NCBI GenBank assembly: GCA_038040445.1
Contig: JBBPIG010000024.1
Coordinates: 46,900 to 108,256 of the forward strand
DNA length: 61,357 bases
Origin: Acidobacteriota bacterium
GTDB taxonomy: Bacteria > Acidobacteriota > Blastocatellia > UBA7656
Direction of reading: 5' to 3'
Positions 5,552 to 55,904 of this stretch are shown here, piece by piece. The notes beneath the pieces were generated by a model, which worked only from the letters and a program-made list of their open reading frames with translations, was not told the origin of the DNA and ran no database searches. Numbering within the stretch: the first letter of the stretch is position 1; each line of letters begins with the position of its first letter. Both the position numbers and the translations under genes were made by a program.

Positions 5552-8281
5552 TTGAGTAATCTACTCATCAAGCCTCAGTTTCTAGAGCCAGGATCTGAAC
5601 GAGTGCCGCACGCGCTAAACGCGGCAACGGTCGCGCGCTTGCTCGGTGTCGATCCATCTCACGGCCTCAATACCTCCGAAGCTGATGAGCGCCGCAAGCG
5701 TTTCGGCGCAAATGCAATTCAAACCATCCGCCCGCGCTCGCCTTGGCGCATTCTGCTGGAACAGTTCGCAAGTTTGATCGTCGCGCTGCTCGCGGTCGCA
5801 GCCTCAATCGCGTGGGCCACTGGCGACGTGATTGAAGCGGTCGCCATCATCGTTGTGCTTGTAATAAACGCGCTGATCGGTTTTGCGACCGAGTGGCAAG
5901 CCGGACGCGCTCTCGACGCGCTTCGTCGTCAGGCCCGCACGACGGCGCGCGTGCGGCGTAACGGGCAGCAGACGAACGTGGATGCGGCAGACCTCGTCCC
6001 AGGCGACGTCGTCATCCTCAACGCCGGTGATCGCGTTCCAGCAGACTCGCGCTTGATCAGAGCTGGGAGCCTGCATGCCGAAGAGTCCGCGCTGACGGGC
6101 GAAAGCACTACCGTCGAAAAATCCTCGGAGCCAGCCGAGGCGAATGCGTTGCTGGCCGAACGCCATTCGATGGTGTACCTCGGCACGACCATCGCAGCCG
6201 GCCATGGAGTAGCCGTAGTCACCGCGACTGGCGCGAACACTGAGCTTGGACGCATCGGCAAGCTCGTCGCCGACGCCCCCGACGAGTCGACGCCGCTCGA
6301 AGCGCGGCTTGCGCACCTCGGTCACCGTCTTGTCTACGCTGTGCTCGTGATCGCGGCCGTGGTTATGGTGACCGGATGGCTTCGCGGAGATGGTTTGTGG
6401 TTGATGGCCCAGGTAGCCATCAGCCTCGCGGTCGCGGCGGTGCCCGAAGGCTTGCCCACAGTGACCACACTGATTCTTGCGCTCGGTGTGTTGAGGATGG
6501 CGCGGCAGAACGCAATAGTCAGAAGGCTTCCGGCGGTTGAGACTCTCGGCAGCACTTCGATCATATGCACTGACAAAACAGGCACGCTCACACAAAACCG
6601 AATGACCGTGCGCGAGTATCAACTGGCCGACGGGAGATCTGTATCGCCGGTTGATCCGCGGTCCTCTCTTGAAAAAGACGAATTGCCTGGCCGGGCTGTT
6701 CGCGCGAGCGTGCTTTGCAATGAAGCAGCATTGACGGCGCCATCAGCCGAGGGCTTGCGAGCCCTCGGTGATCCCACTGAAACAGCCTTGCTCCTGGCAG
6801 CCGAGGAAATGAGCATCGACGTTTCTCGCCTCCGATCCGAGTATCCGAAGATCATCGAAGTCCCGTTTGACGCTTCCACCAAACGAATGATCACGGTTCA
6901 TCGAGGCAAGACGGGAACTTATCTTGCAGCGCTGAAGGGCGCTCCCTCGGTCGTCCTGGATGCCTGTGCGAACTATTTGGATGCCAGCTCGAGCACACGC
7001 CCGCTCGACGACGAAGCTCGCGCCCGATTCCTTTTGGCTAACGAGGAAATGGCTGACCGCGCTTTGCGCGTGCTGGGCCTTGCGGAGAAAAGACTGGCTG
7101 GAGCCGGTGAACAAGTGGCTCTAGGGACAATCTCTAATCTGGAATCGAATGCTGAGATACAGGCCGGTTACACGTTCCTGGGTTTCGTGGGGATGATAGA
7201 CCCGCCGCGGCCCGAGGTGCCAGAAGCAATCGAGCATGCGCGCGCGGCAGGCATCCGAGTTGTGATGCTAACCGGCGATCAGATGAACACGGCTCGCGCC
7301 ATCGCTCGCGAGCTGCGATTGAACGGCGATCAGGAAGCAGAGGCGTTGCACGCACGTGACCTCGAGGGCTTAAGCCATGACCGGCTCGCGGAACTTGCTC
7401 GCACGGCGAATGTGTTTGCTCGCGTCTCTCCCGAAGATAAGCTTCGCATCGTCGAAGCCCTGGTGCAGTGTGGCGAGGTGGTGGCTGTCACAGGAGACGG
7501 GGTCAACGACGCGCCCGCTCTCAAGCGCGCAAGTATCGGAGTGGCGATGGGCGAGCGCGGAACAGAAGCCGCCAAGGAAGCCGCCGACATTGTGCTGACC
7601 GACGACAATTTCGCTACCATCCTGAAGGCGGTCGAAGGCGGACGGGTTATCTACGCGAACATCATGAAGTTCGTTCATATGATGTTCTCGCACAATCTGG
7701 CCGAAGTATTGGTGATCTTTCTGAGCATAGCGGCGGGTTGGCCGCTTCCGCTTCTGCCGCTTCAGATACTCTGGATGAACCTTGTCACGGATGTGTTCCC
7801 GGCGATCGCGCTCGCGCTGGAACCGGCAGCGCCGGGCGTTATGCTGCGTCCTCCACGATCGCCCAAATCTTCACTGCTATCCCGAGATCTACTGGTGCTA
7901 ATCGGTTGGCAGGCCATGCTTCTGGCCGCAATCGTGCTCTTGATCTACGCCTGGGCGCTCGGTGTCTACGGCGAGGGCGCTCATGCGCGGACGGTGACAC
8001 TCGTGGCAATCGTCGGTGTGCAGCTCGGACACATGTTCAATTGCCGTTCGCGCACGCGCACCGCCTTTGAGGGACTCTTCCGCAATCCCTTCATCTGGAT
8101 CGCTGCTGCGATCGTGATAGCGCTGCAACTGACGGCGGTTTACCTGACGCCGCTTTCACGCGTGCTCAACACCACACGGCTTACTAGTTTGGACTGGCTT
8201 ATGGCTGCCGGCGCAGTCGTCGCTCCGATCGCTCTCGTAGAAGCCACAAAACTATTCTCTCGTTGGAAGCGGCGCGGATGA
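5552..8281 (+). CDS. P2-type cation-transporting ATPase (Ca2+-ATPase-like)
   Basis: This 909-residue inner-membrane ion pump has all P-type ATPase landmarks. The actuator TGES is at 182-185, and PEGLP lies in transmembrane helix 4. The phosphorylated Asp is D341 in DKTGTLTQN, with KGAP in the nucleotide domain and TGDGVNDAPALK from residue 647. NLVTD in helix 6 is the second ion-binding motif of Ca2+ pumps. An N-terminal cation-ATPase domain and about ten membrane helices are present. PEGLP with NLVTD favours calcium or another divalent or monovalent P2A/P2D substrate over heavy metals. The start is uncertain: the frame opens with TTG at 5552, and a GTG 17 codons later also fits the family. 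It is likely in an operon with the PPOX gene. Confidence 0.93.
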   Translation: MSNLLIKPQFLEPGSERVPHALNAATVARLLGVDPSHGLNTSEADERRKRFGANAIQTIRPRSPWRILLEQFASLIVALLAVAASIAWATGDVIEAVAIIVVLVINALIGFATEWQAGRALDALRRQARTTARVRRNGQQTNVDAADLVPGDVVILNAGDRVPADSRLIRAGSLHAEESALTGESTTVEKSSEPAEANALLAERHSMVYLGTTIAAGHGVAVVTATGANTELGRIGKLVADAPDESTPLEARLAHLGHRLVYAVLVIAAVVMVTGWLRGDGLWLMAQVAISLAVAAVPEGLPTVTTLILALGVLRMARQNAIVRRLPAVETLGSTSIICTDKTGTLTQNRMTVREYQLADGRSVSPVDPRSSLEKDELPGRAVRASVLCNEAALTAPSAEGLRALGDPTETALLLAAEEMSIDVSRLRSEYPKIIEVPFDASTKRMITVHRGKTGTYLAALKGAPSVVLDACANYLDASSSTRPLDDEARARFLLANEEMADRALRVLGLAEKRLAGAGEQVALGTISNLESNAEIQAGYTFLGFVGMIDPPRPEVPEAIEHARAAGIRVVMLTGDQMNTARAIARELRLNGDQEAEALHARDLEGLSHDRLAELARTANVFARVSPEDKLRIVEALVQCGEVVAVTGDGVNDAPALKRASIGVAMGERGTEAAKEAADIVLTDDNFATILKAVEGGRVIYANIMKFVHMMFSHNLAEVLVIFLSIAAGWPLPLLPLQILWMNLVTDVFPAIALALEPAAPGVMLRPPRSPKSSLLSRDLLVLIGWQAMLLAAIVLLIYAWALGVYGEGAHARTVTLVAIVGVQLGHMFNCRSRTRTAFEGLFRNPFIWIAAAIVIALQLTAVYLTPLSRVLNTTRLTSLDWLMAAGAVVAPIALVEATKLFSRWKRRG

Positions 8282-34326: not shown

Positions 34327-35238
34327 ATGAACCCTTTTGAACTGCGCGGCCCGGAGTTTATAGGGCTCTACATCATTGTGTTGGCCGCCGCCTGTTTGCT
34401 GGCTTACATCCTGCGGAAGAGTGTTAAGGGCGTTGATCGGGATTTCGCTTTGCGCGGAGCCAGCCTCGACGCGTACGAAGCGGCTTACTTGAGTGGCGGC
34501 GCGAAACTCGCGACTGAAACGGCCATCGCCACGCTGCTTTGCACCAAGGCTTTTCGGTTGTCATTCGTTGATAACACGCTATCGGCTATTGCCGGAGCGC
34601 CGCGCGTCTCTCATCCGTTCGAGCAAACAGTCTATCGCATCGTCGAATCGGGCGAAGCCACCACGGTTAAGAGCATTCGAACAAAAGCTGCAGCGACGGC
34701 CAATGGGATCGCTACGCGGTTGCAAGCGTTAGGTCTGGTCATCAATGTCGAACAAAACACTAGAGCGCAAACCTTGCCGGTAATCATTTTGGTGATGGTG
34801 TTCCTTTTCGGGGCGATAAAGGTTCTCATCGGTCTCTCGCGCAATCGCCCGGTTGGATTTCTATTTGTGCTGTGTTGCCTGACCGCCTTGATAGCTTTCT
34901 TCCTCTACAAATCGTCTTCGCACCGGACAAAGGCGGGTGATGATACTTTCGAACGGCTCAAGCGTGAGAATTCGGCGTTGGAATCAACGGCAAAATCCAA
35001 ACCGGAGCGGCTTGCCGCGGGAGATGTGGCTTTGGCGATGGGATTGTTTGGCATAACTGCGCTGGCATTCACGGATGAATCGTGGTCCGTGCTGAAAAGA
35101 CAAATACTCCCGCCCGTCTCGGTTTCAAGCGGCGGCTCATCCTGGAGCAGCTCATCTTGCAGCAGTTCGTCTTCGTGCGGAAGCAGCGGTTGTGGAGGAG
35201 GGTGCGGTGGCGGTGGTTGCGGGGGATGCGGCTCATGA
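34327..35238 (+). CDS. Membrane protein with Gly/Ser/Cys-rich tail (TIGR04222-like)
   Basis: This 303-residue protein has one membrane helix at about 12-32, two more at about 155-195, and a hydrophobic stretch near 240. Between the first and second lies a winged-helix-like soluble part. The last 40 residues are almost only Gly and Ser with six Cys and a single Trp (SSCSSSSSCGSSGCGGGC and GCGGCGS). The layout resembles the TIGR04222 membrane family, whose members end in similar tails. The stop codon overlaps the DUF692 gene start by 4 bp. DUF692 enzymes modify Cys in peptides, so this tail is the natural candidate substrate. That link is inference. Confidence 0.82.
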   Translation: MNPFELRGPEFIGLYIIVLAAACLLAYILRKSVKGVDRDFALRGASLDAYEAAYLSGGAKLATETAIATLLCTKAFRLSFVDNTLSAIAGAPRVSHPFEQTVYRIVESGEATTVKSIRTKAAATANGIATRLQALGLVINVEQNTRAQTLPVIILVMVFLFGAIKVLIGLSRNRPVGFLFVLCCLTALIAFFLYKSSSHRTKAGDDTFERLKRENSALESTAKSKPERLAAGDVALAMGLFGITALAFTDESWSVLKRQILPPVSVSSGGSSWSSSSCSSSSSCGSSGCGGGCGGGGCGGCGS

Positions 35239-36080
35239 AGAACAGCGAGCCCAGTCTTGGAATCGGAATCGGTTGGCGACCCGAGCTGGCGCTTTCGATT
35301 GCGCGCGACACCACGATTGGCTTCGTGGAGATCGTCGCCGAAAACATCTCGCCCGATCGGATACCCCTTCCGCTCAGGCAACTCGCGGAGCGAGGAGTTA
35401 AGGTTGTACCGCACGGCATCTCGCTTTCACTCGGCGGCGCGGAGCCGCCCTCGAGCCAACGGCTCTCACGGATCGCTCGACTCGCCGAGGACCTCAACGC
35501 CCCGCTGGTGAGCGAACACTTTGCTTTTGTTCGCGCAGGGGGCGTCGAAGCGGGACATCTGTTGCCGGTGCAAAGGACCCGCGAAGCGCTCGATCTGCTG
35601 GTTGAGAATATTCTCGAAGCGAAAGCTGCGTTGCCAGTGCCGTTAGCGCTTGAGAACATCGCGACGCTCTTTGAATGGCCTCGAGCGGAAATGGATGAAG
35701 CGACGTTCATCGCCGAAGCGCTCGAGCGCACCGACTCGCTATTGCTGCTCGATGTCTCGAACCTCTACGCGAACGCCCGCAATCACGATTGGGACGCGAA
35801 CGAGTATCTCGACAGGCTGCCGCTCGAGCGGCTCGCTTACGTTCACATTGCGGGCGGCATCTCTAGAAACGGGCTTTATCACGACACCCACGCACACGCG
35901 ATTCCGGCAGCCGGGTTGGACCTGCTCGCAGAAGTCTGCTCGCGCGTTGACATACGCGGCGTGATGCTCGAACGCGACGATCACTTTCCAGAATGGAGTG
36001 AGCTCGCCGCCGAGCTGGACGCTATTGCGGAAGCCCGAGCGCGCGGCGCACGTCGAAGAGAGTTGGCTTATGTATTCTGA
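35235..36080 (+). CDS. DUF692 (MNIO) iron-dependent enzyme
   Basis: This 281-residue TIM-barrel protein matches DUF692, the multinuclear non-heme iron oxidative enzymes. The pattern starts with GIGIGWRPEL, then VEIVAENIS, VVPHGISLSLGG (His60) and LVSEHFAF (Glu94, His95). It continues with LALENIAT (Glu140), LLDVSNLY (Asp173), YVHIAGG (His204), HDTHAH (Asp217, His219) and MLERDD (Glu246). These are the expected iron ligands. Known relatives (MbnB, TglH, BufB) rearrange or oxidise Cys in peptides. Start: ATG at 35235 overlapping the previous stop; upstream in-frame codons would run through the neighbour's Cys tail. The 3' end overlaps the partner gene by 11 bp. Confidence 0.92.
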   Translation: MKNSEPSLGIGIGWRPELALSIARDTTIGFVEIVAENISPDRIPLPLRQLAERGVKVVPHGISLSLGGAEPPSSQRLSRIARLAEDLNAPLVSEHFAFVRAGGVEAGHLLPVQRTREALDLLVENILEAKAALPVPLALENIATLFEWPRAEMDEATFIAEALERTDSLLLLDVSNLYANARNHDWDANEYLDRLPLERLAYVHIAGGISRNGLYHDTHAHAIPAAGLDLLAEVCSRVDIRGVMLERDDHFPEWSELAAELDAIAEARARGARRRELAYVF

Positions 36081-36582
36081 CGCGCGAAGGAGATTGGCGG
36101 CAGCCCAACTGGAACTCGTGCGAGCTCTGGTAAGCAATGAGATCGCGCCGGCCGAGTTCGATAACTCGCGGATTCAAGCGACCGCCGACGCGCTGTTACT
36201 CAAGCGCGCGCACGCGGTAGCTGGCGCCTGGCCGAGCCTTGCGCGCTCGCTCGGCTCGGCGTTCGATGATCGCTTCGCTCTGTACTCTCGATCGAGACCC
36301 GTTGTGCAGGAAGGCGGCCCGCTTGCGGACGGTCGAGCATTTGCTCGCGAGCTTGCTCGTGCGGGTGCTGTGCAGGATGACGTGGCGCTGGAAACGCTCG
36401 CGTTTGACCTTCGCCACCGCGTCAGTTCCGATAGAGTAATCGCGCGGCGAGGCTTTTCGTTTGGCGCGAGTTTGCTCAAGCAACCGCTTCGATGCATTAT
36501 CGGCATCCGCATTCCGTTGTTACGCGAGCGATGGATTAGCATCCCGCTCACAATATTCTTTGAAACACCGCGCGCCCGCTAG
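36070..36582 (+). CDS. Putative partner protein of the DUF692 enzyme
   Basis: This 170-residue protein overlaps the DUF692 gene by 11 bp. No firm family was assigned. Its first 75 residues (LAAAQLELVRALVSNEIAP, then LLLKRAHAVAGAWPSLARSL) resemble the N-terminal helical domain of DUF2063/HvfC proteins. Those are the usual partners of DUF692 enzymes and bind the substrate leader. The rest is Arg-rich and mixed. There is no signal peptide or membrane segment, so it acts in the cytoplasm. The start is set at the Met that allows coupling to the enzyme gene. Confidence 0.75.
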   Translation: MYSDARRRLAAAQLELVRALVSNEIAPAEFDNSRIQATADALLLKRAHAVAGAWPSLARSLGSAFDDRFALYSRSRPVVQEGGPLADGRAFARELARAGAVQDDVALETLAFDLRHRVSSDRVIARRGFSFGASLLKQPLRCIIGIRIPLLRERWISIPLTIFFETPRAR

Positions 36583-36617: not shown

Positions 36618-36696
36618 GAGTTCAGAGTTCAAGCTTCAGCGTGCTTCTCACGTTCATATGGCGAAAAGAGCAAGCTGAAGCTTGAACTCTGAACTC
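36618..36696. repeat. Inverted repeat of family 1
   Basis: Arms 36618-36643 and 36671-36696 pair over 26 bp with one mismatch (words GAGTTCAGAGTTCAAGCTTC and TTGAACTCTGAACTC). It follows the DUF692 operon and precedes the pilus operon by 136 bp, so it may mark the operon end. Confidence 0.85.
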
Positions 36697-55731: not shown

Positions 55732-55804
55732 AAGCTTCAGTTTAGAGTTCAAGCTTTAGCTTGCCCGACTTCGACCGGAGCAACCTAAAGGTTGAACTCT
55801 GAAC
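55732..55804. repeat. Inverted repeat of family 1
   Basis: Arms 55732-55764 and 55780-55804 carry GAGTTCAAGCTTTAGCTTGC and GCAACCTAAAGGTTGAACTC. It lies just upstream of the MFS ribosome site, so it would be in the leader of that mRNA. Confidence 0.82.
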
Positions 55805-55904
55805 TTCGATCACCTTCAAGGCGAAGCCGTTGTTGGCAGTGGCGGGCACTATTTGCGACCGCCTTGTTTATTCGATTGTTCCGAACGTGGTTGAAACCCG
55901 CTCC

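Follow-up and report, generated by a model that had tools for sequence, protein, structure and literature searches.

What is made by a cassette in which a membrane protein with a Cys-rich tail is encoded directly ahead of a putative Cys-modifying enzyme? The question is raised by a run of plus-strand genes in a 61,357-nucleotide stretch of an Acidobacteriota genome (contig JBBPIG010000024.1; the whole stretch is called the window below). The three-gene core encodes P0001 (34327..35238, 303 aa), a membrane protein of the NCBIfam family TIGR04222 ('near_uncomplex') and the putative substrate; P0002 (35235..36080, 281 aa), an MNIO (DUF692, PF05114) enzyme and putative actinomycete-type Cys-modifying maturase; and P0003 (36070..36582, 170 aa), an MNIO partner of PME-type 2 in the sense of Antoine et al., as judged from an iterated profile and a structural model. 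The open reading frame (ORF) coordinates bear out the overlaps of 4 bp (P0001/P0002) and 11 bp (P0002/P0003) given in the first-pass annotation. The window's genome contains one TIGR04222 gene and one MNIO gene, and TIGR04222 was not found in six other genomes of the same genus and family (G001–G006). We lean towards the view that the cassette makes a membrane-anchored, modified Cys tail, its Cys-Gly pairs being converted to 5-thiooxazoles by the MNIO and its partner, probably for copper.

Neither the arrangement nor the idea of the tail as a substrate is new to the literature. Antoine et al. 2025 (PMC12452194) describe TIGR04222 genes beside MNIO genes, with Cys-rich Ser/Gly tails and PME-type 2 partners, and in the sections on this family propose some TIGR04222 proteins as MNIO substrates, without experiments. 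A 2016 Pseudonocardia paper mentions TIGR04222 once, beside a sulfur transferase. The three-gene core of the window belongs to this described kind; what is added here is a nucleotidyltransferase-like gene upstream and a swap of the maturase in relatives, of which we found no report in the part of the open-licence literature that was searched.

From gene order, protein families, ligand residues, the predicted partner fold, the tail pattern and the association of tail and maturase, we infer a modification, its chemistry and its purpose along the following lines. P0003 would hold the substrate for P0002, with the membrane part of the TIGR04222 protein serving as leader, and P0002 would oxidise the Cys-Gly pairs of the C-terminal tail, with 5-thiooxazoles as the most probable product. 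The modified tail would remain attached to the membrane, and binding of a soft metal, probably copper, would be its likeliest use. Copper had been raised in the first-pass annotation and comes by analogy to what MNIOs produce together with type 1 partners; the redox role named alongside it finds no support here.

What marks the tail as more than a stretch of low complexity? P0001 matches TIGR04222 at 142.9 bits (E 1.2e-41; cut-off 43), and its AlphaFold model (predicted local distance difference test, pLDDT, 83) has membrane helices at residues 9–34, 141–171 and 177–195, a short helix at 231–241 and a disordered tail (pLDDT < 50) at residues 265–303 (35119..35235), the putative modified segment. 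As first noticed from the sequence, this is a Gly/Ser tail with six Cys: the last 36 residues consist of 15 Ser, 14 Gly, 6 Cys and 1 Trp, with Cys at 278, 284, 289, 293, 298 and 301, five of which precede Gly. We aligned the tails of 30 members including the window's, drawn from its phylum plus one genome of a second and two of a third group. Gly follows 153 of the 201 tail Cys (76%), as against 39 ± 3% (largest 49%) in 2000 within-tail shuffles; neighbouring Cys stand 3 or 4 apart in 104 of 171 pairs, CxC does not occur (0/171) and CC occurs twice. A tail of this kind might be a by-product of low-complexity repeat growth on a DUF2207-like Gly/Ser tail, devoid of conserved function; DUF2207-like relatives do have Gly-rich tails, and repeat growth would yield regular spacing and repeated Cys-Gly units. 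Against this, CGGC is kept inside the last 12 residues in 27 of the 30 tails though tail length varies, and the 13 relatives scored below the family cut-off have no tail Cys at all, compared with five to nine in 38 cassette proteins that always come with a maturase candidate. We therefore regard repeat growth as very improbable; given the conservation of CGGC, the Cys pattern in these sequences is not chance.

If the tail is a substrate, its Cys should travel with a maturase gene. The comparison covered 46 unique genomes with a TIGR04222 protein over the curated cut-off (40 from the window's phylum, 2 and 4 from two other phyla); Cys were counted in the last 60 residues, and a Cys tail was defined as at least five. 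Five to nine tail Cys are present in 38 of the 46, and a maturase candidate accompanies them in 38/38. Of these, 34 have a same-strand MNIO gene no more than 1.5 kb downstream, frequently overlapping; the contig of G444 breaks off right behind the tail, with an MNIO found on a different contig; and in three (G109, G971 and G1209) a same-strand radical SAM/SPASM gene takes the downstream place of the MNIO. The counted tails include one lacking its N-terminal part at a contig edge (G037) and one with an in-frame TAG (G1375), while four genomes were left out: G172 (missed by our own profile), G472 and G503 (contig ends) and G426. Three further genomes (G022, G038, G595) have at most one tail Cys and no maturase that we could find. 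Below the cut-off, 26 DUF2207-like loci were fetched and 13 scored, 12 being unrecognised by the profile (L112, L114, L117, L120–L128) and L110 being an additional copy in G504, frameshifted and next to a fragment of an MNIO where the contig ends; L104 was checked by Pfam, and L107 runs off its contig. None of the 13 scored proteins has a Cys among its last 60 residues, and none an MNIO gene within the stretch that was fetched; for all 17 Cys-poor relatives (4 over, 13 under the cut-off) the profiles detected neither an MNIO nor a same-strand radical SAM gene there. The association of Cys tail and maturase has a Fisher p of 1.5e-14, uncorrected for kinship. As a separate observation, in G426 (L079, 4996–6685; genome 90% complete) the TIGR04222 tail is gone, no MNIO was found and the partner gene is still adjacent, which suggests a joint loss of tail and enzyme.

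A Cys-rich tail is able to bind metal on its own. The tail might accordingly stay unmodified, as a Cys cluster for metal or disulfides, with the MNIO acting on some other substrate. Such a reading would accommodate G109 and G971, which are Cys-tailed without a detected MNIO, the three Cys of G106, for which no maturase was found, and one TIGR04222 protein that stands beside an MNIO without any Cys tail. It is harder to square with the presence of a maturase candidate in every sampled genome with a Cys tail, its gene in many cases overlapping that of the TIGR04222 protein. No other Cys-rich precursor gene was noticed between TIGR04222 and maturase, although no systematic search was made, and a plain metal site would not readily account for the enrichment of Cys-Gly or the absence of CxC. 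We hold an unmodified tail to be distinctly unlikely. The claim that the tail is the DUF692 substrate, put forward in the first-pass annotation, finds good comparative support on three counts: co-occurrence in the sample, strong Cys-Gly enrichment and the presence of two unrelated maturase types beside the tail.

The second maturase type deserves a closer look. The enzymes of G109, G971 and G1209 all exceed the cut-offs of both Pfam Radical_SAM and SPASM, and PF05114 was not found in the genomes of G109 or G971, the two covered by that search. In G971 and G1209 the radical SAM frame overlaps the end of the TIGR04222 gene. G109 has a tight run of nucleotidyltransferase-like, TIGR04222, channel-like (TrkA_N/Ion_trans_2; RCK) and radical SAM genes, with a 4-bp overlap between the last two, provided that translation begins at the ATG at 7011. 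Its enzyme belongs to TIGR04082 (SbtM, thio(seleno)oxazole modification radical SAM maturase) at 494.2 bits, the cut-off being 350; scanning 1.1 kb downstream, we noticed no SbtA-like peptide. The three enzymes do not form one tight family: that of G109 is 27% identical to those of G971 and G1209, no closer than to a control enzyme in L116, one of the 13 scored loci under the cut-off, where the radical SAM gene lies on the opposite strand and is of another family. In the TIGR04222 tree, G109 falls with MNIO-linked proteins (100/99) and G971 plus G1209 fall apart from it, with the bootstrap not settled; by this placement the maturase was probably swapped on two occasions. By profile, a radical SAM gene is present in 3/3 MNIO-less and 0/35 MNIO-linked cases (Fisher p 1.2e-4, or 1.5e-3 when G971 and G1209 count once). 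A channel-like gene of the G109 kind also occurs in the MNIO cassette of G080, where it comes after MNIO and partner (L138:7008-8849 and L099:4364-5860, respectively).

Is P0002 equipped for such a reaction? It is a member of PF05114 (MbnB_TglH_ChrH) with E 1.1e-79 and 267.9 bits (cut-off 25). The full set of DUF692 iron ligands that had been read into this gene is there: H60, H95, E140, D173, N176, H204, D217, H219 and E246, matched by eye in an alignment to the 8hci chain, correspond at 9/9 positions to H71, H107, E151, D184, N187, H216, D229, H231 and E258, listed as the TglH ligands in PMC10880893. The best NCBIfam families, MNIO_BufB (NF050167) and HvfB, both score under their cut-offs, so that P0002 falls outside the BufB equivalog (194.2 bits, curated cut-off 310). 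Its identity reaches 57.7% with a Nonomuraea MNIO and 56.9% with that of Streptomyces sp. BHT-5-2, compared with at most 42% to the Acidobacteriota MNIOs fetched, and in the MNIO tree it clusters with four actinomycete MNIOs (100/100). By these sequence measures P0002 is clearly an actinomycete-type MNIO. For P0001 the picture is divided: its nearest BLAST relatives are acidobacterial proteins, whereas the TIGR04222 tree puts it with actinomycete proteins on long branches with the bootstrap not settled. Since the two disagree, we do not claim a mosaic cassette in which the maturase alone was exchanged in the window.

The partner, P0003, has no Pfam (E up to 0.1) or NCBIfam match and lacks DUF2063, the mark of PME-type 1; plain BLAST finds only P0003 itself. 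The resemblance to a DUF692 partner that was suspected at first reading does emerge from its predicted fold (AlphaFold, mean pLDDT 73), with a helical N-terminal half and three strands. Among 994 chains, VIA ranks TglI first (8hci_A; Z 9.2, 161 residues, 6.5 A), followed by NGO1945 (3dee; Z 8.2, 118 residues, 4.6 A) and MbnC (7dz9_C; Z 5.3). The tool warns that Z values of this size can arise by chance for helical models, and Foldseek alone gives nothing significant (MbnC at rank 2, E 0.65); as the three top VIA rows are all MNIO partners, we nevertheless call P0003 PME-type 2, encoded as it is after the MNIO, without DUF2063 and with a structure like NGO1945/TglI. An iterated profile unites P0003 with ORFs that follow other MNIO genes in a single family, present downstream of the MNIO in 32/32 visible loci, sometimes with an intervening gene, and in 0/3 radical SAM loci. 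Searched against the PDB, the family profile returns matches to LigA, NHLP and nitrile hydratase that are weak (E 0.016 to 2.1) and serve as a lead only. Short partners of 67–103 aa (e.g. L065:4382-4606) are weakly like LigA/NHLP-type leader domains of ribosomally synthesised and post-translationally modified peptides (RiPPs; LigA-type E about 0.3 to 0.4), as if the leader were supplied as a separate protein. In G093 the partner is fused to the MNIO, and at L097:351-1517 an MNIO and a short partner are apparently one fused protein of 388 aa.

Which product would such a pair install? According to Gadgil et al. (PMC12668002, PMC13097082), 5-thiooxazole is placed on Cys by MNIOs that work with type 1 partners, and FonBC prefers Cys-Gly, with exceptions; bufferins and 'modified SbtMa' are both listed there as 5-thiooxazole compounds absorbing near 305 nm. 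We take 5-thiooxazole as a first guess for the tail, at only moderate confidence because the window's partner is type 2; 5-thiooxazole-forming MNIOs, as described in the sources at hand, mostly use type 1 partners, which counts against our reading. The MNIO might instead give the tail another product: an oxazolone-thioamide, excision of the Cys beta-carbon, a thioether or some other oxidation. MNIOs with partners other than type 1 are described as performing varied chemistry (PMC12452194), the TIGR04222-linked MNIOs form a tree group distinct from four proteobacterial MNIOs that have bufferin-type neighbours (100/98), and the nearest structural match of P0003 is TglI, the partner of a carbon-excising enzyme. 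Yet among curated families P0002 comes nearest to MNIO_BufB and HvfB, albeit under cut-off, an SbtM stands in for the MNIO in G109, and the pairs favoured by a 5-thiooxazole former dominate the tails. A different product is in our judgement unlikely, though it is the alternative to be taken most seriously.

Several observations weigh against a modified, 5-thiooxazole-bearing tail. We found no experiment on any TIGR04222 tail in the open-licence literature searched; the genomes compared are related, so their counts are not independent; and G106 has three tail Cys with no MNIO in the genome and no radical SAM gene in the fetched stretch. As to the swap, the SbtM match of G109 spans only profile positions 195–516 of 516, and the enzymes of G971 and G1209 stay under every curated cut-off, with the ACGX-system and TIGR04053 models scoring best. 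A Pfam scan of 132 of the 185 neighbour ORFs, taken from MNIO-linked loci and related ones, finds Radical_SAM in two, those of G009 and G093 (the latter recognised by its Cys motif only), neither adjoining the tail gene; the distance from the MNIO-linked tail gene is 3.3 kb on the downstream side in G009 and 2.8 kb on the upstream side in G093. With both counted (2/35), p becomes 1.2e-3, or 9e-3 with G971 and G1209 taken once; for the swap we give more weight to tight linkage and SbtM identity than to these values. Beyond the sample, the strict link of Cys tail and maturase fails in actinomycetes, where five MNIO loci were examined. Two of them do have Cys-tailed TIGR04222 proteins: in Nonomuraea (L136), two such genes precede the MNIO and a partner follows it, and on Tsukamurella plasmid 20 (L141) a gene that encodes two TIGR04222 stretches plus a Cys tail is followed by an MNIO and a 61-aa gene. 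In Streptomyces sp. BHT-5-2 (L140), however, a TIGR04222 protein (120 bits) without a Cys tail is encoded ~0.7 kb downstream of the MNIO, and neither a second Tsukamurella MNIO (L142) nor the more distant MNIO of Streptomyces sp. NBC_01527 (L143) has an annotated TIGR04222 neighbour. Homologous tails that lack Cys, named in the first-pass annotation as a refutation of the substrate claim, were looked for, and one clear case of this kind turned up, in BHT-5-2. The actinomycete loci lower our confidence in a modified tail slightly. Antoine et al. (PMC12452194) state, in their account of the family, that more than a quarter of TIGR04222 proteins have no C-proximal Cys and that one third of genomes with a TIGR04222 gene have no MNIO.

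On which side of the membrane would the tail lie? Lys plus Arg after transmembrane segments (TM) 1 and 3 outnumber those at the N-terminus and in the hairpin in 29/30 members, after TM1 alone in 22/30, and several members have an extra N-terminal hydrophobic stretch. The counts suggest an N-out topology for P0001, which would leave the tail cytoplasmic unless the weakly hydrophobic stretch 228–252 crosses the membrane; Antoine et al. (PMC12452194) predict a periplasmic TIGR04222 tail. Either placement is compatible with a cytosolic enzyme, whether it acts ahead of export or there is no export at all. Comparisons of the P0001 fold were set aside: Foldseek gave no significant match; the leaders of a second look with VIA, CorA (7.8) and GOLPH3 (7.5), were at the tool's own noise level; a GPP34 search gave no match anywhere, controls included; and the best PDB hit of the family profile (E 2.2e-4), which fell on linkers and helices in constructs of eukaryotic origin, was not trusted.

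Upstream of the core, P0004 (33551..34318, plus strand, 255 aa) stops 8 bp before the start of P0001. It scores below the NTP_transf_2 cut-off (17.1 bits against 21; E 0.0074), and we call it nucleotidyltransferase-like; it has Asn at the second Asp of the two-Asp motif that we take to be a hallmark of nucleotidyltransferases. Homologues occur upstream of TIGR04222 in ten genomes including the window's, all with SDxN (10/10), adjacent in nine and, at the interrupted locus of G1375, ~0.7 kb away from the C-terminal half; one of the ten cassettes carries SbtM instead of an MNIO. By eye, the G1375 locus (L151, 5086–7908) reads nucleotidyltransferase-like gene, TIGR04222, MNIO and partner, with a TAG in the TIGR04222 frame and a shortened nucleotidyltransferase frame, followed by three similar solute-binding-protein-like genes. 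Taking tails, maturases and P0004 homologues together, it is conceivable, at rather less than an even chance, that TIGR04222 tails constitute an anchored 5-thiooxazole platform served by interchangeable, unrelated maturases (MNIO plus partner in the majority of lineages, an SbtM-type enzyme in one lineage and a different SPASM enzyme in another) through convergent recruitment of two superfamilies to one Cys-Gly chemistry, with the nucleotidyltransferase-like protein as a dedicated part.

Farther out, the commonest families in the 132 scanned neighbour ORFs are Pep_deformylase (11), Haem_bd (9), CAP (9) and UPF0102 (7), and no copper family is among the best 25 of 116 neighbour families. As the common families may reflect plain synteny of related genomes, no copper link is drawn from the neighbourhood. 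Haem-related genes near cassettes (L060, L078 and other f3 loci; Haem_bd 9/132, HbpS-like 3/132) may likewise be synteny. Directly after the window's cassette lies a long inverted repeat with perfect 22-bp arms (36618–36696), a kind of which none is expected by chance in the window; a diverged second copy is found at 55738–55806.

How does the cassette compare with known systems? The TIGR04222-MNIO clusters of Antoine et al. share the membrane TIGR04222 protein with its Ser/Gly/Cys tail, the adjoining MNIO and the type 2 partner; the window differs in its upstream nucleotidyltransferase-like gene and Acidobacteriota host, the main text of that paper containing no 'nucleotidyltransferase', 'SPASM' or 'Acidobacteri-'. 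With the bufferins/captophorins (BufABC, FonABC, HvfABC) it has in common an MNIO and partner acting, putatively, on Cys of a ribosomal product, the Cys-Gly preference described for FonBC and the proximity of P0002 to the BufB/HvfB families, but its putative substrate is a 303-aa membrane protein, its partner is type 2 and its MNIO lies outside the bufferin-type tree group. In PMC12452194, moreover, TIGR04222 proteins are classed as lacking Sec signal peptides. TglHI (3-thiaglutamate) resembles the cassette in iron ligand set and partner fold and departs from it in using a free peptide to which Cys is added, with no membrane protein. The SbtM thio(seleno)oxazole radical SAM system, reportedly that of Lewis et al. 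2021, which Gadgil et al. cite for 'modified SbtMa', meets our cassettes in G109, where an SbtM-family enzyme occupies the MNIO position and has the TIGR04222 tail as its neighbour; the window's own cassette has no such gene.

The established substrates of RiPP enzymes are small peptides, either free or secreted. If true, a membrane protein acting as a permanent thiooxazole carrier would extend RiPP chemistry to protein scaffolds, and would provide a little-studied group of soil bacteria with a fixed metal trap in the envelope. The swap of maturases, in turn, makes the question of TIGR04222 as substrate, and of the chemistry it undergoes, directly testable, since two enzymes of independent origin can be used and a single mass shift is predicted.

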